Assembly: GCA_002695025.1 (NCBI GenBank)
Contig: NZNV01000017.1
Span: 310,001-374,000, forward strand
Length of the DNA: 64,000 bases
Reading direction: 5' to 3'
From: Owenweeksia sp.
GTDB lineage: Bacteria; Bacteroidota; Bacteroidia; Flavobacteriales; Schleiferiaceae
This document shows, one piece after another, positions 51,022 through 64,000 of this stretch (the first letter of the stretch is position 1; every line of letters starts with the position of its first letter). The notes under the pieces are model-generated. The model saw only the letters and a list, made by a program, of their open reading frames with translations, did not search any database and was not told where the DNA came from. A program made the translations under genes and the position numbers.

Positions 51022-51381
51022 ATGAGAATGGAAATTACAGATCAGACAGAAGAGCTATTTGAAATAGTGGCGGATAGTCATGATGCCGTAGTTATTGAAA
51101 GATGTTTTTCAAAATACACTAAACGGGATATGGAAATCCAGCAGTTAGCAATTCCTCAAAAACCAATCTGGCTTCGGGTTACAGTGAAAAGCATACGATT
51201 TTACCGCAAGCATTTATCCCAAAGATTAGGGAACAGATGTGTGTTCGATCCCAGTTGTTCGCATTATGCGGAGCAGGCTTTCAGAGAAAAAGGGTTTTTT
51301 AAAGGGGTGAAGCTAACGCTAATAAGGCTCCGAAGATGTAACCCCTCCAACGGAGGGACAGATTTATTGAAACATAATTAA
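51022..51381 (+). CDS. YidD family protein, copy 2
   Basis: A 119-residue paralogue of the protein at 40893, with the same N-terminal extension (VADSHDAVVIERCFSKYT) and the YidD core (RLGNRCVFDPSCSHYAEQAF, LRRCNPSNGG). At DNA level long stretches are identical or nearly so, including the intergenic sequence before the DUF4177-like gene. The duplication is recent. Unlike copy 1 it follows a gene of unknown function rather than the HsdR_N-like nuclease. Confidence 0.85.
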   Translation: MRMEITDQTEELFEIVADSHDAVVIERCFSKYTKRDMEIQQLAIPQKPIWLRVTVKSIRFYRKHLSQRLGNRCVFDPSCSHYAEQAFREKGFFKGVKLTLIRLRRCNPSNGGTDLLKHN

Positions 51382-51648: not shown

Positions 51649-53484
51649 ATGAAGAGTTTCTCGATAAAAGCACGAAGCTGCGTATTAAGAAATAAGAAAG
51701 CTTCACAAGATGTGGATAGCCTTCTTTCAGGCAATATCAAATTCATCATACCAGTCTTTCAACGGTCTTATTCCTGGGACGGGCGACAGGTGGAAAAATT
51801 GCTGAACGACATTCTCTACACCTTCGAAAGTGAAGATGGCCAATTGGGTGCCGAACCCATCTTTATTGGCACCATGCAGTTAGGTAAACCCAAAGAAAAC
51901 GGGGAGCAGGAAGTTATTGACGGTCAGCAACGCCTCACCACTATACTTTTAATGATCAAGGTGTTAAGCTTATTGTTTCCGAACTGTGCCCGTCTTAAAG
52001 AGGTGGGGTTTGACTGGATAGAAAGCAGAGTGAGTAAAGGAGAACAGCAAAAACGGCTGGAAGAAGTATTAACTATTAGTAATGTAAAGAGCTTACTGCA
52101 AAAAGATGAGCAGCGGGAAAATGTAAACCGTTATCTCAAGAACACACAGCTCATCTGCCAAATCCTCGGCACCTATTTTGAAGAAGAGGGCGAAGGAAAA
52201 CCCAGTGCTCTGATAGAATATTTATTGCAACAGGTCTATTTTGTGGTGATCGAAACCCATGCAGGTCTCTCCAAAACCCTGCAGATATTTGACGCTATAA
52301 ACACCACCGGACTTGATCTCAACGGAGGAGATGTATTTAAGATAAGGATGTATGAATACCTCACCAGCAAAAAAGGAGAGCAGAAGGAGGTGTTTGACGA
52401 GATATCCGGATTATACCAGAAAATTGAGGCTTATAACGTAAAAATCGGATCTTCATTTATGTCAATGCCCCATATTTTGGGGATCTACCAATTTTACCTG
52501 ATTGGGGTTTATGATTTGCCAAAGGAGCTATACCGCTACTCGTATAGCCGTTTCTTCGAAGAGTTTTTTGATACCGCCTTTGGGTTACAGAAGGAAGGAC
52601 ATTTTAAAGATAAAACGGATAGGATAGAGCTTCGGTTAGAGGACATTGAATCTTTGATCGAATCACGTTACGACTGGGAGGCCAATTGGTGGAGCAAGGC
52701 TTATTATACGGAGGAGGATGTATGCATGAGTCATATGATGTGTGGGTCACGTTACTCGACTTTCTGGCGGATTATTGTTCTGTACAATCTTCAATTAAGG
52801 AAAACTGATATTACCGAACCCGAACGTTGGGCGCGAGTACTGCTATTCAATTCTAATCTGAGCCGACTGTATTTTGCCTATAGCATCGTATATGCCCGGG
52901 CAGTAAACCACGTTCGCAGCAAAACCTATAAACTCTCTCTATTGATCTCGGAGGGAGATCTGGATGAAACAGATCGGGAACTATCCATTATGTTGAATAA
53001 TGTGGATTTATACAATAGGGTTGAGAAAAGGCTGGCAGGGGAGATCACCGATAACGCCAAAGCCAAAAATATGATCTGCAGGCTTTCCGCCATGCTGGAA
53101 GAAGATTATAAGGCTGAAGCAGTGCAGGACGAGCATTACAGATCAAAGTTGGAGCGCATTTTATATAACCCTAACCAGCCAATCGATATCGAACATATTC
53201 AGTCTTACCATCATGAAGATGAAGCTATACGGGAATCTATTTGGGAAGAGTGGAAGGGGGATATCAATTCCATCGGAAACCTAACCGTACTGGAAAGAGA
53301 TAAGAACCGCCATATTAAAAACAAATCTTTCAGTAAAGTAAAGCGCCTGCAGTACGCGGAGAGCTGCTATGCCGGTGTAAGGAGTATCGGGGATCAGGAA
53401 GAGTGGACTTTGGAAGATGCCCGAAAAAGAAAAGATGAGCGATCCAAAGCTATTCTTGATTACCTGTTTGGAAGTGCTTCATAA
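51649..53484 (+). CDS. DUF262/DUF1524 protein (GmrSD-like restriction factor)
   Basis: A 611-residue protein. The DUF262 N-terminal domain (ParB-like) has FIIPVFQRSYSWDGRQVEKL and the hallmark VIDGQQRLTTILLM; the C-terminal DUF1524 domain has a His-Me finger-type signature IEHIQS ... SIGNLTVLERDKNRHIKNK. GmrSD enzymes cleave glucosylated hydroxymethylcytosine DNA of phages using NTP; related single-chain proteins defend in other ways. The N and C domains are joined by a long helical linker. It is followed after 5 bases by a small Cys-motif membrane protein gene, so they are probably cotranscribed. Confidence 0.88.
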   Translation: MKSFSIKARSCVLRNKKASQDVDSLLSGNIKFIIPVFQRSYSWDGRQVEKLLNDILYTFESEDGQLGAEPIFIGTMQLGKPKENGEQEVIDGQQRLTTILLMIKVLSLLFPNCARLKEVGFDWIESRVSKGEQQKRLEEVLTISNVKSLLQKDEQRENVNRYLKNTQLICQILGTYFEEEGEGKPSALIEYLLQQVYFVVIETHAGLSKTLQIFDAINTTGLDLNGGDVFKIRMYEYLTSKKGEQKEVFDEISGLYQKIEAYNVKIGSSFMSMPHILGIYQFYLIGVYDLPKELYRYSYSRFFEEFFDTAFGLQKEGHFKDKTDRIELRLEDIESLIESRYDWEANWWSKAYYTEEDVCMSHMMCGSRYSTFWRIIVLYNLQLRKTDITEPERWARVLLFNSNLSRLYFAYSIVYARAVNHVRSKTYKLSLLISEGDLDETDRELSIMLNNVDLYNRVEKRLAGEITDNAKAKNMICRLSAMLEEDYKAEAVQDEHYRSKLERILYNPNQPIDIEHIQSYHHEDEAIRESIWEEWKGDINSIGNLTVLERDKNRHIKNKSFSKVKRLQYAESCYAGVRSIGDQEEWTLEDARKRKDERSKAILDYLFGSAS

Positions 53485-53489
53485 ATAAG

Positions 53490-53837
53490 ATGAGTAGTTC
53501 TAAAAGTAGATCCATGAAACCTGGCAAAGGGTATATCCTATTTATCAGCATCTTTTTACTTGGAGGATGGCTTTTTTACTGTCACTATTCTCCCGCCCGC
53601 GAACATCTTAGCGATCAGGTCTATATCACAAAAACCGGAAAAAAATATCATCAGGTGGATTGCTATTACCTGCGCCACAGTAAAATTGAAATGAGCCGCG
53701 TAAAAGCGGAGGAATTGGGTCTAACACCTTGTAAGGTATGCTTTTATAAGCCTGCTGCTTATCAGGAAGGCGATACGGTGATTTTTGAGGAGGCTCTGGT
53801 ATTTCAGATTCAGCTAGAGAATACGTCTGTTTATTAA
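53490..53837 (+). CDS. Membrane-anchored protein with H-x2-D-C-x-Y-L ... C-K-x-C motif
   Basis: A 115-residue protein. Residues 13-32 are one membrane helix (GYILFISIFLLGGWLFY); the rest, starting SDQVYITKTGKKYHQVDC, carries H54-x2-D57-C58-x-Y60-L61 and C81-K-x-C84. The segment is an Ada-like or treble-clef zinc module often seen at the end of larger bacterial proteins; the same motif is in the small protein at 50193. The domain should be periplasmic. It follows the DUF262 gene by 5 bases. Confidence 0.7.
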   Translation: MSSSKSRSMKPGKGYILFISIFLLGGWLFYCHYSPAREHLSDQVYITKTGKKYHQVDCYYLRHSKIEMSRVKAEELGLTPCKVCFYKPAAYQEGDTVIFEEALVFQIQLENTSVY

Positions 53838-54491: not shown

Positions 54492-55523
54492 ATGTTTATT
54501 ATGAGAAACATTTACCTGCTATTATGCCTGGTTATATCCGGCACCCTCTTATCCCAGAAATACGATCTGCAACAGATCCACGCTACCCAAAAGTTTTACC
54601 TCAATAATGCCACCCGGGAAGCTTTAGGGACCGGAAACAGCAAAACCACTTTATCCATACCCTTGCCGGATAATACGGTAGAATGGTATTATTCCTTTTC
54701 GGCCACTCGTGAAGATGGCAGCCAGAGCCTGAATCTCTTTGGTCAATTGATCAACATCCTGGAACCTTCCGGTATTTCCGGAGCTATGTTTGGTGCCATT
54801 ACCGTACCGGATGGTAATGCGGCCTGCAATATTTATATGACCGACTTTGAAAACGCGCGACTATTTGAAGAAGGCTCTCGGTTTACTTATTACCCAGCTC
54901 ATTCGAGGGAGAGTTATACGGAAGGTGTTGTGAAAGTCAATGAATTTAATGGTCAGGGTTTATATCTCTGCATTGAAAACCCGGCCAATTGGGAGGGAGC
55001 TACTGTTTTTGTTGAGGTTACAGCCCTGGTGGATACCGCAAAGCCTGAAAAAGCTCCCACTACCGAAGAAATAATAACCGATGGAATCGTCAACCTGCTC
55101 GGGGCGATCCAAGAGAATAATAAAGCTAAAAAAGAAGCTCGTAAACAGGAAGAACAGTTTCGCAATTATTGGAATACGGGCCGGGTATTTTACGAGAGTG
55201 GTGACTTTGAAACCGCTATGTCCTATACCCAAAAAGCCCTGGAGCTGGGTGAACACCCCACTCTGTATTTTAACCTCGGTTTGGACCAATGGTGCAGCGA
55301 CAGCAGCAACACCTGCACAGCGACTTACCTTAAAGGGTTAAATATGATTTATCAATTGGAAAGCCAGGAAGAAGCTATTGAAGCATTGGAAGCGAGTATT
55401 CAAGACTTGGAAGAGGCGGTGAGTAAATACCATTTTGTGAGCTATACCCCACCTGCAGTCAGGCTTTTGGCTTTAAAGCTTGAAGAGGTAAAAGCGGTGG
55501 AGAAGTGGAAGAGGAGGTTTTGA
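54492..55523 (+). CDS. Secreted TPR-containing protein
   Basis: About 343 residues. The signal peptide (MRNIYLLLCLVISGTLLS, preceded by MFI) argues for a start at 54492 or 54501; the frame itself opens at a TTG at 54465. A beta-rich N-terminal domain (SKTTLSIPLPDNTVEWYYSF) is followed by a charged helix (NKAKKEARKQEEQFRN) and tetratricopeptide repeats (VFYESGDFETAMSYTQKALE). Periplasmic or surface. Unknown role; transcribed alone. Confidence 0.7.
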   Translation: MFIMRNIYLLLCLVISGTLLSQKYDLQQIHATQKFYLNNATREALGTGNSKTTLSIPLPDNTVEWYYSFSATREDGSQSLNLFGQLINILEPSGISGAMFGAITVPDGNAACNIYMTDFENARLFEEGSRFTYYPAHSRESYTEGVVKVNEFNGQGLYLCIENPANWEGATVFVEVTALVDTAKPEKAPTTEEIITDGIVNLLGAIQENNKAKKEARKQEEQFRNYWNTGRVFYESGDFETAMSYTQKALELGEHPTLYFNLGLDQWCSDSSNTCTATYLKGLNMIYQLESQEEAIEALEASIQDLEEAVSKYHFVSYTPPAVRLLALKLEEVKAVEKWKRRF

Positions 55524-55596
55524 CGCGAGATAAAACCTTCTTAGTTAATATGTTATATAGTTTAACGTGAGTTTGATTTAAGATTCACGGAGGAGC

Positions 55597-55653
55597 GTTT
55601 TGTCACATTTAGTGTCCCGAACTGGCTTCGGGGTGTATTGAAATGGACAAAAC
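55597..55653. repeat. Palindromic intergenic repeat, type A copy 2 (inverted)
   Basis: GTTTTGTCACATT ... GGACAAAAC with inner AGTGTCCCG / CGGGGTGTATTGAAATG. It is the reverse complement of the element at 39601-39684 with a different central hairpin. Terminal GTTTTGTC and GACAAAAC are inverted copies. Confidence 0.7.
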
Positions 55654-55661
55654 AATACACG

Positions 55662-55715
55662 GTTTCGATACAATCCATCCCGGCTGAGCCGTGACGGATC
55701 ACTCAACCTGACATT
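55662..55715. repeat. Palindromic intergenic repeat, type A copy 3 (partial)
   Basis: GTTTCGATACAATCC ... GGATCACTCAACCTGACATT repeats the inner segments of the element at 39601-39684 in the same orientation, with a GGCT/AGCC hairpin in the centre and without the long terminal arms. It abuts copy 2 head to head. Confidence 0.65.
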
Positions 55716-55755
55716 CGTTTATCATCATAGACTTACGTTAGTTTAGCTCTCGATA

Positions 55756-56595
55756 CTACTTTTTCCCCCCGAAGACACGATTGATCAACGATTGCCCCTC
55801 CCGTTCCTCCAGTTGCTGCCGTATGGCCTCAAACTCGCTGTTGATGGCGGCCAGCTTTTCGTTTTGTTGCGTGAAATGGGTACTGAAGTTGTTTTTCACA
55901 TCAGCTATATTCTGGTTAAAGGTTTGGATATCACCACCTTCAAATAAAGCGGCTATCCGGGACTGGGTTTCTTTAGAGAGCTTTTGTAGACTGGCCATAT
56001 TCTGCTCCAGCGTGCTTTGGATGGTCTGTTCCCCACTGCTGATTTGCTCTTTCACCTTGTCTTCTACGGTTTGTTTAAGAGAGGACAGTAAGTCCTTAAA
56101 ACCACTTTGGTGATCATGTACCAGCTTTTCCTGCTCGGCTACCAGCTCCGTGGTTTTGTCGGTCAGGGAGTTGAGCTTCGCGGAATGATGATCCAGTTTG
56201 GTCTTAATACCCTTATAATCTTCCAGGCTTACTTCCAGCTTTTGCAGTTGAACCGTGAAATGCTCATTGGTTTGATTGACCTGTTGCACGTAAGCCTGGT
56301 ATTGCATGCTAAGGGATTGGAGATGTTTTTTATGGGTTTCGTTCTGGGCCTGCAAGTGTGTATTGGTGTGTTGCTGGTATTCGGCAAAAGCTTTTCCATA
56401 ATAATTAGTCAGTTCGGTAAGCTTTTGAGCCAGTTCCTTCAGGTAGTGGTCCGTAGAATTTTTAAGGTGCTCCAGATTCTGGGAGAGGAACAGCTTCTGG
56501 TTGCCTTCATATCGCCTGATATGGCGTACCATTACAATGATGGTAACGATATGCGTAAGAACTAGGAATATAATGAGATTGAAAAGATCGTTCAT
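55756..56595 (-). CDS. Membrane-anchored coiled-coil protein of the tubulin/actin-like operon
   Basis: A 279-residue protein with one N-terminal membrane helix (LFNLIIFLVLTHIVTIIVMV, residues 4-23) and an almost continuous coiled coil to the end (for example KELAQKLTELTNYYGKAFAE). Last gene of the minus-strand operon, 4 bases after the lipoprotein gene at 56600. A structural or scaffold role linking the membrane to the cytomotive proteins is inferred from neighbours only. Confidence 0.7.
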   Translation of the reverse strand: MNDLFNLIIFLVLTHIVTIIVMVRHIRRYEGNQKLFLSQNLEHLKNSTDHYLKELAQKLTELTNYYGKAFAEYQQHTNTHLQAQNETHKKHLQSLSMQYQAYVQQVNQTNEHFTVQLQKLEVSLEDYKGIKTKLDHHSAKLNSLTDKTTELVAEQEKLVHDHQSGFKDLLSSLKQTVEDKVKEQISSGEQTIQSTLEQNMASLQKLSKETQSRIAALFEGGDIQTFNQNIADVKNNFSTHFTQQNEKLAAINSEFEAIRQQLEEREGQSLINRVFGGKK

Positions 56596-56599
56596 AAAC

Positions 56600-58063
56600 T
56601 TACTCTATGCGGATGCGCAGTTTTTCAGTTACCATCCATTTTCCTCCCTCTAGTTTTAAGCGGCCGGGCTGGTTCTTATCCTGCACAATGTGCTTACCTT
56701 CCAGATGTCCACCCTCTATTTCGCATACCGGTTCCAGCTCATAGGCGTAATTAGTAAGTGCAGAACTCACCGCGCTTTCTTCCTGGGTTAGAAACAAGAA
56801 CGTAGCTTCGGTAGGTGTCTGGGAGTTTACGTCTATTCGGTAAGTATGTTTATTCGGATCGAGTTCCGGTTTCTTCTTTTCATCGGGGAAATAGCCTTCC
56901 GGAGAGGGGGGAGGGGAGTAATAGGTGTCCATTATTAATTCCTTATCGGATTGCCTTAACTTTTCCTGAAGAGTTACTAAATAAGCATCAAGCTTTTGGT
57001 CAAAATCTTCTTTACGGATCTTATCCAGATCATAATTCATCTTAAGCTTATCTATCTCATCTTTAACCAGGTAATAAAGCTTGTTCTTTCTATGGAGATT
57101 AGTGAAGAGGTTGGACCATTCTTTCAGATCAATCAGCCTTTGTGGTTCCAGCTTAGCGTTGATCTCATGCAAAGTATAGGTTTGCGGTTCTGATGGTTGC
57201 TGAGAACGTATTCTGTGTGAAGCTTTCTCGGGTTCTGTTGACCTGTTATTTTGCCGGATACTTGTACTCAGTCCCTCCACCTGCAGTGATATGGAGTTGA
57301 GATCCTTTGATTTAGAATTCAGACGGTTGGAAATGTCTGTGATCAATTTTTTTTGGCCTCGAATTTGGGAAAATAGATAAACCAGGGCTATGAGAATAAG
57401 GGCTATCAGTCCAACCACAAACCAGCTTAACCAATTATTCATGAAATCAGGATCAGGACTGTTATCAATATCCTGTTTAACTGATTCCTCGGATGAGAGT
57501 ACTCGTAATGCATTGAATTCAGATATGGTTGAGTTCCTAAGGATCGATAACCTTTGGCCCCATTCGGTAGAATAGTAGCGCTTATTAGTTAAAATTTGAT
57601 GAGCTGTGGTTGAGAGGGAGTCAAGATGAATGATAAAATTCTCTGAATCGACTTTTTGTGCTAATTGGCCTTGTCTACGCTTAAGGTTTTGAAAAATGTC
57701 CTGGTTTTTATCAGGAATGCTATCAAACAGAATTTCCAGTTTTTTGGCATTCATGCAACCTTCTTCATAACAAAGGCAGTTGGCGTGGATAATATCAAGC
57801 TCGTATTTTTCAGCGGTGTCCTTCTCGAGCTTACCTGAGCGCCTTACTTCAATTAAGTATTGCGAAACGATGCAATTCAATTTATTACCATAGGAGTTAA
57901 ATAACCGCTTAACGTAATCAGAGGATGCGGCAGGCTTTTCGTGCTTTTCAGCAACAGAGACTGGTTTTTTAACTTCAGAACTTTGACTTTCCGGATTATC
58001 GCAGCTGCTGAAACAAAAGGACAAAAAGAAAAGTATGGAAAGGGTATATTTTGCTCTATTCAT
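56600..58063 (-). CDS. Lipoprotein with internal membrane helix, operon member
   Basis: A ~487-residue protein. The ATG at 58061-58063 starts a signal peptide with lipobox FSSC (MNRAKYTLSILFFLSFCFSSC); an in-frame TTG at 58078 overlaps the upstream stop codon and is an alternative start. Residues ~40-200 are helical with paired cysteines (ANCLCYEEGC), a membrane helix follows (WFVVGLIALILIALVYLF, ~215-235), then coiled coil and a C-terminal beta-rich domain (TYRIDVNSQTPTEATFLF). No family recognised. It probably spans the inner membrane and contributes to the operon's complex. Confidence 0.65.
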   Translation of the reverse strand: MNRAKYTLSILFFLSFCFSSCDNPESQSSEVKKPVSVAEKHEKPAASSDYVKRLFNSYGNKLNCIVSQYLIEVRRSGKLEKDTAEKYELDIIHANCLCYEEGCMNAKKLEILFDSIPDKNQDIFQNLKRRQGQLAQKVDSENFIIHLDSLSTTAHQILTNKRYYSTEWGQRLSILRNSTISEFNALRVLSSEESVKQDIDNSPDPDFMNNWLSWFVVGLIALILIALVYLFSQIRGQKKLITDISNRLNSKSKDLNSISLQVEGLSTSIRQNNRSTEPEKASHRIRSQQPSEPQTYTLHEINAKLEPQRLIDLKEWSNLFTNLHRKNKLYYLVKDEIDKLKMNYDLDKIRKEDFDQKLDAYLVTLQEKLRQSDKELIMDTYYSPPPSPEGYFPDEKKKPELDPNKHTYRIDVNSQTPTEATFLFLTQEESAVSSALTNYAYELEPVCEIEGGHLEGKHIVQDKNQPGRLKLEGGKWMVTEKLRIRIE

Positions 58064-58074
58064 GACTAAGGCTT

Positions 58075-61000
58075 TCAACTTTTTAATTCTTCCATTCTTC
58101 CCGAATCTATCATAGCCATGGAAAGGTCATACATAATAGCACGTATGGGATAAAAGAACATGGTTTCGTGTACCACCTGCTGGCTTTCGTAGTTTTTCTT
58201 TTGTTGTATAGCCAGGCGTAAGGCACTTTGGATATTATTCTCGTTCAGGCAGTAATTCTTGCACTTCTCCTGGTTGTAGCTGTCGTCCAAACCAAAATTG
58301 CGGGTAAAGCCACAGTCGTACCACAGGTCTTCAAAGAAAAACTCCAGGAAGTTCATTACGTTGTGAGTCACCTCCTGTACGGTAGGATCATCATCGTCCA
58401 GGAATTTTTCGTAGCGATAATTCTTCTTGACCTTACCATCATTATCATGTATCAGCGTATAATTATCCCCCAGGGCAAAGTGATATACTTCCTGGTCGGC
58501 ATCCAGTTTATCTTTTATGGAGGGCAGTCCAATAATTCCCCCAGCTGCGGTAGCGTGTTTGGGGTTTTGACTGATCTCCAGTTTCAGGGGTGGTACTTCT
58601 TCGGTCTCAAATACTTTCCCGAAGATAGTGGATATCAGTTGTGCCATGCCATTGGAACGGTTCAGGTCCGGGTCGCGGTTGGTCATTTCCAGTAACCTGG
58701 CCCCGTTGCCACTTAAGCCGATCTTATCTGGCATGTCCGCCCCACTCATTTTCACAATTTGAGCAGCATGGTAAAAGAGGGCGGAGTGATGTAGGAGGAA
58801 CAGTAATTGTAATTCCTTGTCCAGTTGGATCACTTCACGCATTTCTCTTTGTTTGAGGAAGAACATCATCAGGTCTGAGGAGCGTAGGTTCTTCTCATTC
58901 ACCATATAATTGATGATGCGGGTTTTGGAGGCATTGCCTTTAAAAACCTCTTTTCCTTTTTCCAGGTATTTCTGGAAGATACCGTTGCGCTTTTGCGGAT
59001 CCACATTCTTATTGAGGCCATCTTCATAAAGATGATCGCCTGCGAAGCGGAATGAAGAAGTCATCAGAGGTGCCCCGTCTTTAAACAGCAGGAAATCACT
59101 GGTACCACCCCCTATATCCACGTTCAGGTACAAACGGCCAGGTCCGTAACTGCGGGTATGGCTGAAGTAAGGCGCCCAGGATTCGGTTACCTCGTACAGT
59201 TGAGGTTTATTTTCAGCGGTTTTGGCAAAATACTTCAGGTAGGTTTGTCGCCATATATTTTTAAAGGTAGTAGCCTGGTCAATATTCATGCTAAGGGGTT
59301 TAAACCAGATCACATCCGTACGGTCCGGTTGCACACCCATTTCCAGCAAGCGTGTACGCCCCATCAAAGCTACCTGGTCAATGAACAGGTGCAAGCGGTT
59401 ACGCACATCCGGGCTATTAGGGTCGGACGTCCCCCATTTAAGGTGACTATACGCTTTATCCAGGCTCTGACGCATCTCAAATTGTTCAATGGCAAAGGGT
59501 ATGTTCACGTTTACCAGGGCACTGAGCTCGTCAATTTCTTTGGGGTTGGTGTCGTTATCCTGGTTAATGATGGTGCGTATGGGAAATTCGTAATCTGAGC
59601 CATCTCCTATAACTGAAGGCATGAGTTCGGACATTTGCGGAGGTAGAAAGGAAATGAAATTATCTACCCCGTAATCGTACTTTTCTGAGCCGCGTTTGCC
59701 CGGGACTGGCTCATGTAAAAAGGCCAGGTGTGGAAAATCATCCCCCTCGCTGGTTGGGGATGAGCTTAGGGTTTCTGGTTGCCCATTATCACCCGCAACC
59801 GTCACATAGGTATTGCTAGTACCGATGTCAAAAGCAATAGAACCTTTGCTGTGCAATTGCTTTAGTTCTCCCCATTGCGGGATTACCACGCATTCCGTAA
59901 GAAAACCTTTGGTGGTTATTTCCACACCAATTATGTCAAAGCGGATGTCATCGGTTGTGCCTTTGTTGGCCTTACGGTCTTTATCCAAAGAATGGGTGGC
60001 TAATTCGGTATACTGGGTATTGTAGCGCTGTCCTTCTTCTTTCCGGGTGCGGCTAAACTCAAGGTTTCGTTTAATGAGAACGGTTTGTGGTCCATTCCTG
60101 TCTTCTCTTAAAAAAGAACAATGCAGGCGCTCAATGGAATTATCGTAAAACTGGGCGATCTTATAAAAGTCGTTGTAGCGGTTATCCGAAACCCGGAAGA
60201 AGGGGTAGATACCCAGGCCAAAGCTCACTTTCACGATGGCTCCCTTGGCATCGCTGCTTACCCCGGCTGGGTCTACATCAGAATAGAGTCTTTCAAAGGT
60301 AATGGAGCCGGTGTCGTTATCTCCCTGAACAGGTATGGTTAGCTTTACAGAAACTGCTCCACTTTGCAAGCGTTCCATATTGAGATTGGCTTCCAGGTCA
60401 TTAAGGGTGAAATAGTCGAAGTAGGCGGGTTTTATAGGCGGTAATAAGTTCTGGCATTCTCTGCCACCCACGGTTTTAAACCTCTCAGAGTTGATATTGG
60501 CCTCCTCAATTTCCACCAGGTTTTTAGCCAGGAAATCATTTTTACCAAAGCAAGGGTATTTGATATTAAACTTAGGCAGCTCCCGATCTTCAATAACGGA
60601 AGTGTTAAAGTTATTGGGGTCTACATCAGCAGGCATGGGGCCGGTATAGTATTTCCAGTGGTGCATGCGGGAATCAGGGATGATTATCAGCGGTGGGTTT
60701 TGCAGGTTTTTACCACTGCGTATAGCATAGTCACTGTTTCTTAATATTTCTTTTGGGTCTGCACCTTTTTCACAACGGTACTGCAGGTCTTTACCTAATA
60801 AAAAGAGTGGGTTGTTGGAGATGGAAAGTACCTGGCAGCGAGGTTCTTCATCTTTACCCAGGGCATTGTTCTCTATTTTACGGATAAAGTCTTTCAACTC
60901 AGGCTCCGCAATATGCTGCCGGCTGTTTTTGATGTAACGGTGTACATCCGGGAAGGCATTTACGGCAATGGAACTTGTCTCAAAAAACCAGTTTAGAAAT

Positions 61001-61659
61001 TTCTGAAAGCCTGTATCCCGTTTGTAGAGAGGTTGCCGGTCACGGAAAAAGTAGGAAGCATCGAGTTTCTGAATGTCTTTTGGCGTTCTTTCGTTAATAG
61101 TAAAGAAGCCGGTAAGGGGAGAGGTGCCGCCTATAATACTACTGTCCAGCCGAATAAGTAGCAGGTTTCTAAAGGGGTTCTTATCGCCATAGCGCTTTCC
61201 TTCCTGGTTGTAATTGCGGATGTAATTACGGAGCGTACCGGCAAAGGTCTCCCGGCCCACGTCACCATTAGAAGCAAAGCGGTCCAGTTCACTATCGTTC
61301 CAGTTTAGCACGGATATACGCTGGCTAAGTCCTAGTACATCATAATTATACATCAGTTCGTAAAGGTCCAGGCAGTGGGACACGATGCGGTGATAAGTGG
61401 TTTCACCATCCAGTACTTTTTCCTGCTTGCCCTGACCTTTTTCTGCATCGCGATAGGCTTCATTGATAAAGCGGAAGGCCGTTTCAAAAAGGTGCATTTG
61501 TGCAAAGGGGCTGGGTATAGAGGTTACCGGTATTTCACGTTCGCCCACATTGTCTTTTATCTTACTGATAGTTTCCTCATTATGAGGGTTTCCGGCAAAG
61601 GCATTCCATAATAAATTGGGTACACTTTCCCCCCGGTTAATGCTGATCTTGTAAGCCAT
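58075..61659 (-). CDS. Hsp70/actin-superfamily ATPase, 1194 residues
   Basis: The last 600 residues carry the actin/Hsp70 nucleotide fold in order: phosphate 1 loop SIAFDIGTSNTYVTVAG (~608), phosphate 2 loop NVDIGGGTSDFLLF (~848) and adenosine motif KIGLSGNGARLLEM (~980). The first 600 residues are a separate region of mixed strands and helices (for example FRYxLLLIRLDSS-type segments) that I do not recognise. Far larger than DnaK (~640) and with no substrate-binding domain. It lies 3 bases after the tubulin-like gene. ATP hydrolysis is very likely; polymerisation is not shown. It may be related to the large actin-like proteins of membrane-remodelling loci. Confidence 0.82.
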   Translation of the reverse strand: MAYKISINRGESVPNLLWNAFAGNPHNEETISKIKDNVGEREIPVTSIPSPFAQMHLFETAFRFINEAYRDAEKGQGKQEKVLDGETTYHRIVSHCLDLYELMYNYDVLGLSQRISVLNWNDSELDRFASNGDVGRETFAGTLRNYIRNYNQEGKRYGDKNPFRNLLLIRLDSSIIGGTSPLTGFFTINERTPKDIQKLDASYFFRDRQPLYKRDTGFQKFLNWFFETSSIAVNAFPDVHRYIKNSRQHIAEPELKDFIRKIENNALGKDEEPRCQVLSISNNPLFLLGKDLQYRCEKGADPKEILRNSDYAIRSGKNLQNPPLIIIPDSRMHHWKYYTGPMPADVDPNNFNTSVIEDRELPKFNIKYPCFGKNDFLAKNLVEIEEANINSERFKTVGGRECQNLLPPIKPAYFDYFTLNDLEANLNMERLQSGAVSVKLTIPVQGDNDTGSITFERLYSDVDPAGVSSDAKGAIVKVSFGLGIYPFFRVSDNRYNDFYKIAQFYDNSIERLHCSFLREDRNGPQTVLIKRNLEFSRTRKEEGQRYNTQYTELATHSLDKDRKANKGTTDDIRFDIIGVEITTKGFLTECVVIPQWGELKQLHSKGSIAFDIGTSNTYVTVAGDNGQPETLSSSPTSEGDDFPHLAFLHEPVPGKRGSEKYDYGVDNFISFLPPQMSELMPSVIGDGSDYEFPIRTIINQDNDTNPKEIDELSALVNVNIPFAIEQFEMRQSLDKAYSHLKWGTSDPNSPDVRNRLHLFIDQVALMGRTRLLEMGVQPDRTDVIWFKPLSMNIDQATTFKNIWRQTYLKYFAKTAENKPQLYEVTESWAPYFSHTRSYGPGRLYLNVDIGGGTSDFLLFKDGAPLMTSSFRFAGDHLYEDGLNKNVDPQKRNGIFQKYLEKGKEVFKGNASKTRIINYMVNEKNLRSSDLMMFFLKQREMREVIQLDKELQLLFLLHHSALFYHAAQIVKMSGADMPDKIGLSGNGARLLEMTNRDPDLNRSNGMAQLISTIFGKVFETEEVPPLKLEISQNPKHATAAGGIIGLPSIKDKLDADQEVYHFALGDNYTLIHDNDGKVKKNYRYEKFLDDDDPTVQEVTHNVMNFLEFFFEDLWYDCGFTRNFGLDDSYNQEKCKNYCLNENNIQSALRLAIQQKKNYESQQVVHETMFFYPIRAIMYDLSMAMIDSGRMEELKS

Positions 61660-61662
61660 GAG

Positions 61663-63183
61663 TTAGTTTTTAAAGCGTTCAGAGTAAATGGCATTACTGC
61701 CTTCCTGCAACAACGCAATGAGTTTCATTTCAAAGGATTGGAGCTCCTTGTTTTGCGTAATATCATCCACCTTTTGGGTGAAAGTCTTATCGAAGTCAAT
61801 AGCATCTTTTCTAAAGAAGTTGGAGTTGTCTAAAGCGGGTATGCCGTTTACCACGTTAAAAAGGCTTTCACGGCTTAGATTAAGTTCAATGGGAGTGCCG
61901 TTATTCCCCACAGATCCGCTTACATTCATATTAAAGGGCACAAACTTGCGGCCGTGCCGGTCAGAACCGAGCTGGTACAGCCACCGGTAATAATACTTAC
62001 CGCAAAATTCCCGTAGGTCTTTTACGAGTTGGTTGGATTTGAAGTTGGCGGGTACTTGCAGCTCTTTTCGCCAGGTAAGGCGAGAGTCGTCTAAAGCATC
62101 ATTCAGGTAATTGGTAATGTACAGGCTCAGGTACTTGAACTTGATAAACTGTTCCAGCAGGTTATCACTGGTTTTACCCAGGTGGGTAAGATTGATCTCG
62201 GTAGTATCCTCACTAATGCCAAATTCAAAGTATTTAATGGGAGAACTGAGTTCGGAAGCTTCCTTAGCTTCATTTTCGTGCTGTATGAATTCCAGGATGG
62301 AGAGGGCAGAGGCAAATTCAATAAAATTAGCCTCATTCTTTTGGTTTTCACCCCCGTCAAAATTTTCATACTGGCTTCTGCGGTAATCTCCTGTATAAAA
62401 AAGAGCGTTGAGATTGCTGGCCAGGTATTTTTCATAATAAGCCAGGGCGGCTTTGGTTTTAGAAGTAAAGGTATTGCTGTCAATGGCACTTTCTCCGTTC
62501 CGGAATTTATCGGAATCCACTTCAAAGTAGGGTAAAATAGAAATACCCCCTATAATAGAGTCCTTTATATACTCACTGTTGTTGATGCCGCTTTTAGGGT
62601 CACGAAAAACATTGAGTAGAAGCGGAAAACCCGCAGCACCGGTGCCTCCAAATATAGAACTGATGATGAAAATGCGATCACCTGGTTTAAACTCCTGCGT
62701 AAACTCTTTAAAGCCTCGTGATTCCACTACTTGCTTAAGTACGATGCTACCCACACTAGGAACTCCTAAAAAACCTTTTTCCAGGTTCATCTCACGACTG
62801 GCCTCAGTAAAAAGTAAGTCTATTAAGCCTTTAGTAGAGGTGAGATCGGAAGCATTCAGTTGGTTATAGCCGATCATATTGGCGAGGGTGCCTATATCGG
62901 TGCCACTGATGTTTAGTTCTTTAGGCATTTCCACTTCTGTACGGAAAAAGCTATCCGGGTAAAGGTTGGTAGGCACATTGTTGTAAAGCTTTTCATGAAT
63001 ATCACGGTATTTACCTACGATGTGCCGGAAGTACTCCAGGTCACCATTATTAACATCCGTATCAATCACCATAGGTACAATCTTGTCTGTTTCGGCTTTT
63101 AGGCCTGAAGCCAGGAGCATGACCAGTGATTTTAAAACGCGTGTTCCTGTTCCTCCTATCCCGAATACATATAGTTTGGACAT
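61663..63183 (-). CDS. Tubulin/FtsZ-like GTPase domain protein
   Basis: A 506-residue protein of the divergent tubulin-like group. The N-terminus YVFGIGGTGTRVLKSLVMLL has the first nucleotide loop (GIGGTGTR, residues 8-15), VIDTD is the second strand, and IFGGTGAAGFPLLL (~178-190) is the tubulin signature loop T4 (GGTG(A/S)AG). It lacks the FtsZ C-terminal peptide and is otherwise very diverged. It is encoded directly before an Hsp70/actin-like ATPase and with membrane proteins, as in operons proposed to remodel membranes. GTP binding is likely; filament formation is an inference. Confidence 0.85.
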   Translation of the reverse strand: MSKLYVFGIGGTGTRVLKSLVMLLASGLKAETDKIVPMVIDTDVNNGDLEYFRHIVGKYRDIHEKLYNNVPTNLYPDSFFRTEVEMPKELNISGTDIGTLANMIGYNQLNASDLTSTKGLIDLLFTEASREMNLEKGFLGVPSVGSIVLKQVVESRGFKEFTQEFKPGDRIFIISSIFGGTGAAGFPLLLNVFRDPKSGINNSEYIKDSIIGGISILPYFEVDSDKFRNGESAIDSNTFTSKTKAALAYYEKYLASNLNALFYTGDYRRSQYENFDGGENQKNEANFIEFASALSILEFIQHENEAKEASELSSPIKYFEFGISEDTTEINLTHLGKTSDNLLEQFIKFKYLSLYITNYLNDALDDSRLTWRKELQVPANFKSNQLVKDLREFCGKYYYRWLYQLGSDRHGRKFVPFNMNVSGSVGNNGTPIELNLSRESLFNVVNGIPALDNSNFFRKDAIDFDKTFTQKVDDITQNKELQSFEMKLIALLQEGSNAIYSERFKN

Positions 63184-63203
63184 AATAATTTCAGATTAAA
63201 TGA

Positions 63204-63608
63204 TTAGCGAAATGGATTGAAAGGTACGTGGCGGTTATGCAGACTTAAATTGTTGAAAATCAGCGAAAAGATCAGAAAAAGTATCACGGTGTAAAGGGTG
63301 GAATTCCAGATGGCAAATACCCAGATATCCATATTTATTCCACTCAATGTGGCGTGGTCAAAAGACAGAAAACCACACATAAGAGCTGTGCTGATAAAAA
63401 CCAGGAGCTCGGTAAAGAACATAAAGCTGAACCACCAGCCTACGGAGGCATATTTTCGGGTGGTTCGGCCGATAATAAGGTAGTAGATGATCGTCATAAG
63501 GAGGCAGCACAAAACCAGAGTGGTAAAGCCCAGTACAAAGCCACTGGAATACCATATTTCAAAATCGGTATGGGTAGGGTTGAACAAACTGTAGATGTTT
63601 TCCAGCAT
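63204..63608 (-). CDS. Small multi-pass membrane protein, operon member
   Basis: A 134-residue protein with four hydrophobic helices (for example FVLGFTTLVLCCLLMTIIYYL and WWFSFMFFTELLVFISTALM). No family recognised. It lies between the truncated gene and the tubulin-like gene with gaps of 2 and 20 bases. A membrane-embedded subunit of the operon's complex is a reasonable guess. Confidence 0.65.
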   Translation of the reverse strand: MLENIYSLFNPTHTDFEIWYSSGFVLGFTTLVLCCLLMTIIYYLIIGRTTRKYASVGWWFSFMFFTELLVFISTALMCGFLSFDHATLSGINMDIWVFAIWNSTLYTVILFLIFSLIFNNLSLHNRHVPFNPFR

Positions 63609-63610
63609 AA

Positions 63611-64000
63611 TTATGGTTGATTAATGGTTTCTTTAAAATTGATAGTTAGCAGGGTCGGGCTTTCGTCATAAGCTTTGTAAAAAGCTTCCATCAGGGATTG
63701 AAAAGCATAGGTTTTACCCTCCAGGGATGCGAGGCTAATCTCTACATCATCGTCCAGGTGTGCTTGTCGGGTCCATCGGGCCTCAGGTTTATGAAGTTGT
63801 AGCTGAAAGTCGCCACTGGTTTCGGAGAGGTTGGTAAAGCTAAGGCTAAGGAGGTGGGTAAGTTTTTCCCGGCTCATTACCGGCCTTACTTCTGTGTATT
63901 CTTTTTCGGTATCTATATCTTCTTTATTTATTACACCCACCTCACCATCAATGTGACTTTGATTAAACTGAAAATGGGATTGCAGGAAAGAAGGAGTAGC
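63611..64000 (-). CDS. Unknown protein, 5' end outside window, first visible gene of the operon
   Basis: The frame is open from the window edge (ATPSFLQSHFQFNQSHIDGE at the visible start) to the stop at 63611; at least 129 residues are visible. A GTG at 63940 is inside the frame and is not the start, since coding continues upstream. Segments such as VMSREKLTHLLSLSFTN and FQLQLHKPEARWTRQ give a mixed alpha/beta pattern. No motif recognised. It ends 2 bases before the membrane protein gene. Confidence 0.6.
   Translation of the reverse strand, partial: ATPSFLQSHFQFNQSHIDGEVGVINKEDIDTEKEYTEVRPVMSREKLTHLLSLSFTNLSETSGDFQLQLHKPEARWTRQAHLDDDVEISLASLEGKTYAFQSLMEAFYKAYDESPTLLTINFKETINQP

Follow-up and report, generated by a model that had tools for sequence, protein, structure and literature searches.

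Genes of the operon

The stretch analysed here (hereafter the window; 64,000 nt, G000:C21:310001-374000, from the 4.46-Mb genome G000, assembled in 41 contigs) carries an operon on its minus strand, at positions 55756-64000, in which a tubulin-like gene lies next to a gene for an ATPase of the actin/Hsp70 fold; according to the open reading frame (ORF) listing, the operon extends beyond the window edge. Its six genes, lettered A to F in transcription order, encode a lipoprotein (A), a protein with three transmembrane (TM) segments (B), the tubulin-like protein (C), the ATPase (D), a lipoprotein with one TM helix (E) and a TM coiled-coil protein (F), of 430, 134, 506, 1194, 492 and 279 amino acids (aa), respectively. 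The letters M (ZorA/MotA-like) and N (ZorB/MotB-like) are used below for two genes of relatives. The features of the window are as follows; the 80 named loci are described in the next section.

63611..64000, minus strand: 3′ part of A, which encodes a secreted lipoprotein of 430 aa bearing a vWA-like [DE]xSxSM motif (whole gene G000:C21:373611-374903, 5′ end outside the window); lipobox Cys and motifs conserved, no vWA profile match
63204..63608, minus strand: B, 134-aa membrane protein with hydrophobic stretches at residues 18-36, 59-77 and 95-113 by hydropathy; between A and C in 79 of the 80 named loci
61663..63183, minus strand: C, 506-aa protein of the tubulin/FtsZ superfamily by profiles and model; nucleotide-binding domain at about residues 1-350, then mostly helical
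63139..63162, minus strand: glycine-rich loop GIGGTGTR of C, residues 8-15; G10, G11, T12, G13 and R15 invariant in 52 of 52 rows
62629..62649, minus strand: tubulin signature loop GGTGAAG of C, residues 179-185; G179 to A183 invariant in 52 of 52 rows
58075..61659, minus strand: D, 1194-aa ATPase of the actin/MreB/Hsp70 fold by profiles and model, with a large N-terminal half
59851..61659, minus strand: N-terminal half of D, residues 1-603; conserved, as in TSIPSPFAR and GGTSP, with no relative among solved structures by sequence search
58492..59850, minus strand: actin-like ATPase domain of D, residues 604-1056; D611, G613, E826, D848, G850, G851, D855 and G984 invariant in 52 of 52 rows
56600..58078 (alternative ATG start at 58063), minus strand: E, 492 aa, with a lipobox-like FSSC signal (by eye), a hydrophobic stretch at residues 212-230 and a conserved C-terminal part, from hydropathy and alignment
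55756..56595, minus strand: F, 279 aa, with an N-terminal hydrophobic stretch and a long coiled coil; occupies the position of the MotA/MotB-like pair in many relatives

The ORFs listed by the original prediction, which had described adjacent tubulin-like and actin-superfamily genes on one transcript with membrane and coiled-coil partners, were all confirmed at their positions, and a search upstream of position 64000 found that the one gene cut by the window edge is A, of 430 aa, which extends to G000:C21:374903. The intergenic gaps within A-F are 2-20 bp, D and E overlap by 4 bp if E begins at its first TTG, about 0.8 kb upstream of A is devoid of any ORF of 90 aa or more, and the first ORF past F has the opposite orientation. 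It is therefore likely that A-F share one transcript, a claim that agrees with the tight coding order and whose basis is gene spacing. No Rfam match at the gathering score was found in the leader upstream of A, and a terminator scan of 55400-55800 detected none.

In Pfam, C matches Tubulin_2 (E = 4e-5, 23.5 bits, curated cut-off 27) and Tubulin (E = 2.4e-3, 18.6 bits, cut-off 33). That is, it fails the curated score of PF13809 (Tubulin_2), which we take to be the FtsZl1 family; among 25 aligned C members, 20 match Tubulin_2 (best E = 2.3e-10) and 19 match Tubulin at E ≤ 0.01. An AlphaFold2 model of C from 52 sequences (mean predicted local distance difference test score, pLDDT, 84.9; predicted template modelling score, pTM, 0.90) had CetZ2 as its best Foldseek match (E = 2.8e-4, probability 1.00), and VIA-align superposed it on CetZ 3zid (Z 16.2, 216 residues aligned, 3.6 Å) and FtsZ 1rlu (Z 15.8). 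These structural alignments fall mostly within the first 350 residues, the remainder being mostly helical in the model. Furthermore, FGGTGA of the signature loop is invariant in all 52 rows. The two glycine motifs, the weak Pfam matches and the CetZ/FtsZ-like model thus bear out the tubulin/FtsZ-like assignment, and profiles and model agree on tubulins rather than placing C outside that superfamily, whose membership is confirmed at the level of prediction.

The best Pfam match of D is FtsA (E = 9e-4, 20.1 bits, cut-off 31.8), and a D profile matches chains of MreB, of an actin-family filament protein and of Hsp70 (best E = 3.3e-6). In the model (pLDDT 83.1, pTM 0.74, first 50 residues poor), for which Foldseek found MreB at E = 4.3e-9, residues 604-1056 superpose on MreB 2wus (Z 12.5, 286 residues aligned, 3.4 Å), DnaK (12.2), ParM (12.1) and FtsA (11.7) in a structural comparison. 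The eight invariant ATPase residues (52 of 52 sequences) presumably represent the phosphate-1, catalytic acid, phosphate-2 and adenosine motifs, so that the nucleotide site of D appears intact. Fold match and motif set together confirm, as judged from the model, an ATPase domain of the actin/MreB/Hsp70 fold at residues 604-1056, in line with the proposed membership of this 1194-aa protein in the actin superfamily. The N-terminal half has 16 invariant columns among 25 sequences, and a profile of residues 1-603 found no relative by sequence among solved structures (best E = 0.13, a keratin). The view that this half lacks an obvious counterpart therefore stands as far as sequence goes, the fold of that half not having been assessed alone. 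SrfB, considered as a relative of D from recall alone, was dropped, there being no SrfB among the Pfam matches up to E = 1.

The membrane and coiled-coil partners of C and D were likewise supported. In 37 aligned members of A the lipobox Cys is invariant, and the [DE]xSxSM-type motif near the N-terminus and a conserved SD, which together recall a vWA metal site, are nearly invariant in their SxSM and SD parts; the first motif position is the canonical D in both cyanobacterial rows and E in most Bacteroidota rows. Hydropathy gives three hydrophobic stretches in B, one internal stretch in E and one at the N-terminus of F. F has ZorA3 as its best PADLOC match (E = 2.5e-5), and several other coiled-coil families match too.

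The genome has its own ftsA (C11:62702-63826) and ftsZ (C11:64147-65130), both over curated cut-offs, which excludes C or D as its cell-division proteins and makes C-D a second tubulin-actin pair. The claim that having both superfamilies in one operon is unusual needs to be narrowed accordingly: ftsA-ftsZ is itself such a pair, present in this very genome, and it is the occurrence of another, independent pair, with these partners, that stands out as unusual.

Relatives and the M-N pair

Relatives were collected by scanning an alignment of C against one genome per species, which yielded at least 571, and the best 80 were kept as named loci, which are not independent of each other. Among these best 80 of at least 571 loci, C and D are adjacent in all 80, A-B-C-D occur in this order in 79 and A-B-C-D-E in 78, the sole locus without the full A-B-C-D order being a 3,054-bp contig. 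Since the C-D and A-B-C-D order recurs in this way, chance co-location of the genes is ruled out. Pairwise distances are correlated between C and D (r = 0.96), C and A (0.90) and C and B (0.89) across 65 loci, and between C and M (0.95) and C and N (0.85) across 43 loci, much of which would be expected from common ancestry alone.

In 63 of the 80 named loci the operon continues with M and N. M is present in 67 and F in 10, and three loci have neither M, N nor F, two of these on contigs shorter than 6 kb. The M-N pair, a feature of relatives, could not be seen from the window. In Pfam, single M proteins match MotA_ExbB (best E = 2.7e-4) and single N proteins OmpA (best E = 2.4e-5). With PADLOC, ZorB was matched by all four single N proteins (best E = 1.9e-13) and ZorA, at E ≤ 0.01, by two of five single M proteins (best E = 6.2e-5). 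With an N profile, ZorB was found in the Shewanella type I Zorya structure 8VVN at E = 1.6e-14 and in the E. coli structure 8qyd at E = 7.7e-9, and the TM aspartate D14 of N is invariant in 26 of 26 sequences (consensus FFWxSYxDLMTSLFFVMLVLFV). An M profile aligns with ZorA of 8VVN across 61 positions in the channel part (E = 8e-5), a PLYLGLxGT motif is retained in M, and the tail of M is coiled-coil-like. In passages of PMC11890865, 8VVN is the structure of a type I Zorya ZorAB complex, and ZorA has an elongated cytoplasmic tail. Judging from the sequences, M and N probably form an ion-driven stator.

In a sample of the class, a solid C was found in 24 of 396 genomes, 23 of which also have D, the remaining C lying at a contig end. 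The D profile matched 331 of the 396, because its short ATPase motif also matches FtsA/MreB-type proteins; the count was restricted to long matches, which occurred in 22 genomes. No long D match occurred without C in the 396 genomes, with at most two candidates scored per genome, a limit by which the D adjacent to C in G078 was overlooked, as D genes in other genomes may be. Weak C matches in G059, G174 and G278 (short stretches, with E between 5e-4 and 1e-3) were excluded from the counts, and no A-E genes were found around those of G059 and G174. In the genus of G225, inferred to be Hymenobacter from a 100% match to H. aerophilus, every one of 101 sampled genomes has C, and none of the 36 other genomes sampled from the family of the window has it.

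Among 72,556 plasmid records, four matched C, including one of 1.77 Mb. On three cyanobacterial plasmids C and D lie side by side, with A on the opposite strand in one. D had no match in 50,697 phage records, and in IMG/VR D was found on one contig and C at four loci. Three IMG/VR contigs filed as viral (L060/L141, L142 and L143) all carry A-B-C-D, followed on two of them by M-N and, at a greater distance, by a gene for an EndG-like nuclease (judged by eye in L142). Loci labelled Acetatifactor (L099), Williamsia (L112) and Sulfuricurvum (L121) are contigs of metagenome-assembled genomes that fall among or beside Bacteroidota loci in a tree of D, so that a binning error is likely. In two genomes of one genus (G166 and G433, loci L043 and L046) C and D are on different contigs, meaning that the pair is not always an operon, and in L044 (G400) an in-frame stop splits D into ORFs of 429 and 698 aa, perhaps marking a decaying copy.

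A proposed envelope machine and its alternatives

On balance, we lean towards the view that A-F code for a machine that spans the envelope, its cytosolic core being tubulin-like and actin-like. Directly supported are the gene order, the superfamilies, the conservation of the ATPase motifs, the co-inheritance and the ZorAB/MotAB-like pair in many relatives, the last of which strengthens the earlier suggestion of an envelope-associated machine. C and D may form a nucleotide-dependent assembly, and by analogy D could serve C as FtsA serves FtsZ, i.e. as membrane-side partner or regulator. B and E, plus F in the window's clade, would anchor this core to the inner membrane, and lipoprotein A and the N-terminus of E would lie in the periplasm, giving periplasmic contacts. 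In the common form, M and N might build a peptidoglycan-bound 5:2 ion-driven motor (M5N2), with N holding the peptidoglycan and ion flow driving the motor, the coiled-coil tail of M reaching into the cytosol, and C and D either gating the motor or being moved by it. In the window's clade, where the motor is missing, F may replace the tail of M, leaving a scaffold driven by nucleoside triphosphates. The work of such a machine would be mechanical or organising, such as peptidoglycan/outer-membrane attachment or remodelling, rather than cell division or plasmid partition.

A bolder proposal, which we put forward tentatively and at somewhat less than an even chance, is that of a new class of trans-envelope motor, in which an ion-driven stator of ZorAB/MotAB type is coupled to its own tubulin-like and actin-like pair, ion flow and nucleotide-driven assembly thereby acting within a single machine, and which is core in Hymenobacter, horizontally spread elsewhere, and fitted with a coiled coil instead of the motor in the window's clade. 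If true, bacteria would own a second, independent tubulin-actin pair, linked in many carriers to an ion-driven motor; we know of no machine that combines tubulin-like, actin-like and ion-driven motor parts. Hymenobacter, with C in every sampled genome, would be suited to direct tests.

A number of observations weigh against the envelope machine. Its function is inferred from sequence and models. In the whole-protein model of C, neither a C-terminal domain of FtsZ type nor a T7 loop could be recognised, and since these are the elements used for polymerisation we make no claim of filaments. Every single-protein Pfam match of M and N is under the curated cut-off, three of the five M proteins have no ZorA match in PADLOC, and three coiled-coil matches in the PDB outrank ZorA for the M profile, the best being 4tql, an unrelated coiled coil (E = 9.7e-8). 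No vWA profile match was obtained for A (window A against Pfam at E ≤ 1, none of 37 members against Pfam at E ≤ 0.1, none in the PDB), so that 'vWA-like' is a statement about a motif, and the reading of A as a vWA protein has no support from profiles. The presence of the operon is sporadic outside Hymenobacteraceae, and 44 of the 80 named loci come from that family (counting Rufibacter, which we presume to belong there). Even in the genus of G225, C was matched in two pieces in 5 of the 101 genomes, and in G494 only at E = 1.6e-37 over 300 residues.

The window's own clade adds to these points. Profiles of M and N found nothing in G000 or in the genomes of four relatives with F, and the same profiles found both genes in three of three genomes with M-N, which had supplied profile rows. 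In the tree of D (74 rows, unrooted, quick support method), the 11 F-type loci cluster together with support 100; they belong to G000 and to ten Flavobacteriaceae, among them Aquimarina, Dokdonia and Psychroserpens. The absence of M-N from G000 and these relatives suggests that the tubulin-actin core can be maintained where the motor-like pair is lacking, and the unrooted tree is compatible with loss of M-N in the F clade or gain in the others. A substitution of F for the tail of M is suggested by position; hhalign aligned F and M with a probability of 34%, over the coiled coil, and the PADLOC matches of F are mixed coiled-coil families. F as a shortened M, for which the same comparison and the ZorA3 match would speak, was set aside as unproven. 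No ZorA/ZorB stator pair of the kind that defines Zorya was found in the window's genome; elsewhere in that genome two ExbB/TolQ-family proteins exceed the cut-off, and a further match is weak.

The resemblance of N to ZorB and, more weakly, of M to ZorA could instead point to a Zorya-like anti-phage system, with an envelope complex sensing phage entry and the C/D assembly as response or effector. We consider this unlikely, if deserving of attention: the sporadic presence in the window's family and class and the copies on cyanobacterial plasmids and IMG/VR contigs would suit such a role, but C is universal in one genus, unlike typical defence genes, D was absent from the phage records, no nuclease or toxin family was recognised in the window operon, and A, B, C, D and E had no PADLOC match up to E = 1. 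Two neighbouring genes speak for the defence reading. A candidate defence gene resembling HEC-06, which we take to be DUF262-like, lies 2.3 kb past F (window 51649-53484, plus strand, E = 7.9e-33), and a type I restriction gene lies about 11 kb beyond A (L003:6247-8781, minus strand, E = 6.9e-126). When 92 flank proteins of 14 loci, operon genes excluded, were compared with 92 proteins taken at random from 268 in 20 control regions of the same 14 genomes, the numbers of PADLOC families at E ≤ 1e-10 were 52 and 43, respectively, i.e. no clear enrichment by a coarse test that counts families, not genes. ZorC, ZorD and ZorE were not among the 25 of these 52 families listed for the 92 flank proteins, no search having been aimed at them. 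Conflict roles have been predicted for other tubulin or HSP70 systems, as stated in parts of PMC7159879.

If D were a chaperone of the Hsp70 kind and C provided a scaffold, the operon might also be a chaperone or Ter-like envelope-stress system, a distinctly unlikely reading in our estimate. The D profile matches Hsp70 chains as well as MreB, but no substrate-binding domain was recognised in D (no separate test was made), and the window operon genes gave no TerD, kinase, DnaJ or GrpE match in Pfam, other main-subtype loci not having been scanned for these. It is the TerD-type genes in divergent loci that lead us to keep some weight on the stress-response reading. In the divergent L053, C-D are followed by a second actin/Hsp70-like gene (by eye), a TerD gene, another TerD-like gene recognised by eye, and a gene of OmpA type; within the TerD-family/OmpA-type group (L053:1639-2361, 2289-2858 and 917-1627), only 2289-2858 was tested for TerD, giving E = 8e-43 to the TerD structure 3ibz, and the remaining TerD assignments are by eye. 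TerD-like genes also occur in L144 (L144:17682-18863), and a kinase-like gene in L050, both by eye. An accessory of motility or secretion, of gliding or type 9 secretion kind and driven by the ZorAB-like motor, is suggested by the preponderance of Bacteroidota among the kept loci (77 of 80 by title, with a query built mostly from Bacteroidota) and by the powering of gliding and type 9 secretion by MotAB-type motors, as given in parts of PMC11890865. We find it improbable, the motor-like pair being missing from the window's genome and from those of four close relatives. A role in DNA segregation, or a phage-type tubulin (TubZ/PhuZ-like) with a ParM-like actin, is very improbable in our judgement. 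Tubulin- and actin-type partition systems do exist, the ATPase domain of D matches ParM among others, and some copies are plasmid-borne; however, plasmid records with C are as rare as given above, D has no counterpart in the phage records, and the partners are lipoproteins and membrane proteins.

Described systems and neighbouring genes

In cell division, FtsA and FtsZ together with Tol-Pal represent an actin-like and tubulin-like pair with a TolQR-family motor at the envelope. D shares with that system its best Pfam match, FtsA, under the cut-off; C-D differ in being separate from the genome's ftsA-ftsZ, in the reversed gene order and in the 1194-aa ATPase with its new N-terminal half.

For FtsZl1 operons, passages of Makarova and Koonin 2010 (PMC2875224) predict a membrane-remodelling complex with vWA and OmpA-type proteins, to which a referee of that paper objected that the components are on different sides of the membrane. 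As described there, FtsZl1 is like C in its divergent FtsZ-like GTPase domain, mostly helical C-terminus and lack of a recognisable T6-H7, and its operons, which encode vWA, OmpA-type and TM proteins and for which membrane remodelling is predicted, resemble the one described here. In contrast, Hsp70, MotA, MotB, TolQ and ExbB never occur in its main text, and actin is never an operon partner in the passages compared (the supplement being outside the comparison), no extended coiled coil like that of FtsZl1 could be seen in the model of C (no coiled-coil program was run), and A fails the vWA profiles. If the envelope machine is real, a stator of MotAB/ZorAB type, which combines a tail in the cytoplasm with a periplasmic domain that binds peptidoglycan, would provide the link between cytoplasm and periplasm that the 2010 referee missed in FtsZl1 operons. 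As regards Zorya ZorAB (8VVN, 8VVI; passages of PMC11890865), N is closest to ZorB and M resembles ZorA weakly in the channel part and bears a long coiled-coil tail, whereas no ZorC, ZorD or ZorE was recognised in the A-F operon, which has C and D in that place, and M and N are missing from the window's genome.

GTPase-centric conflict systems, in the parts of Kaur et al. 2020 considered (PMC7159879), likewise have tubulin, vWA and TM components near the membrane, and their overview combines GTPases with tubulin and HSP70. They are, however, centred on TRAFAC GTPases and GAP1, and no such Pfam match up to E = 1, GAP1-N2 included, was obtained in the window operon; section 29 describes tubulin and HSP70 versions in firmicutes and actinobacteria with non-overlapping themes, and 'MotA' and 'proton channel' are absent from the text. 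The vWA-TolQ force transducers, described in portions of PMC12204202 as predicted vWA trans-envelope systems driven by the proton-motive force, also in Bacteroidetes, have no tubulin partner, the word being absent from that text. Two 2025 papers on MotAB/TolQ evolution never mention tubulin, and no tubulin link was found in the sections seen of PMC11090510 on CoCoNuT-type Hsp70/vWA systems. No operon with tubulin, actin and MotAB/ZorAB was described in the literature searched, a search outside of which most subscription journals and supplementary files fell. The combination thus appears undescribed in that literature, though such a kind of system was anticipated.

Some genes recur around the operon. 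Upstream of A, four Flavobacteriaceae loci (L066, L068, L087 and L098) have a response-regulator-like gene of 221 aa (by eye), beside which L066, L068 and L087 have a TPR sensor-kinase-like gene (by eye), the pair being on the other strand in L087. These genes are possible regulators of the operon. Small YidD-like ORFs containing Cys lie near the operon in the window (51022-51381), L066 (L066:7977-8294), L068 (L068:8003-8284) and L098 (L098:5265-5564), all by eye. Moreover, short proteins with a similar H-C-C-C pattern, also recognised by eye, flank the operon in the window (53490-53837), L002 (L002:16183-16611), L066 (L066:7462-7680) and L068 (L068:7424-7675).

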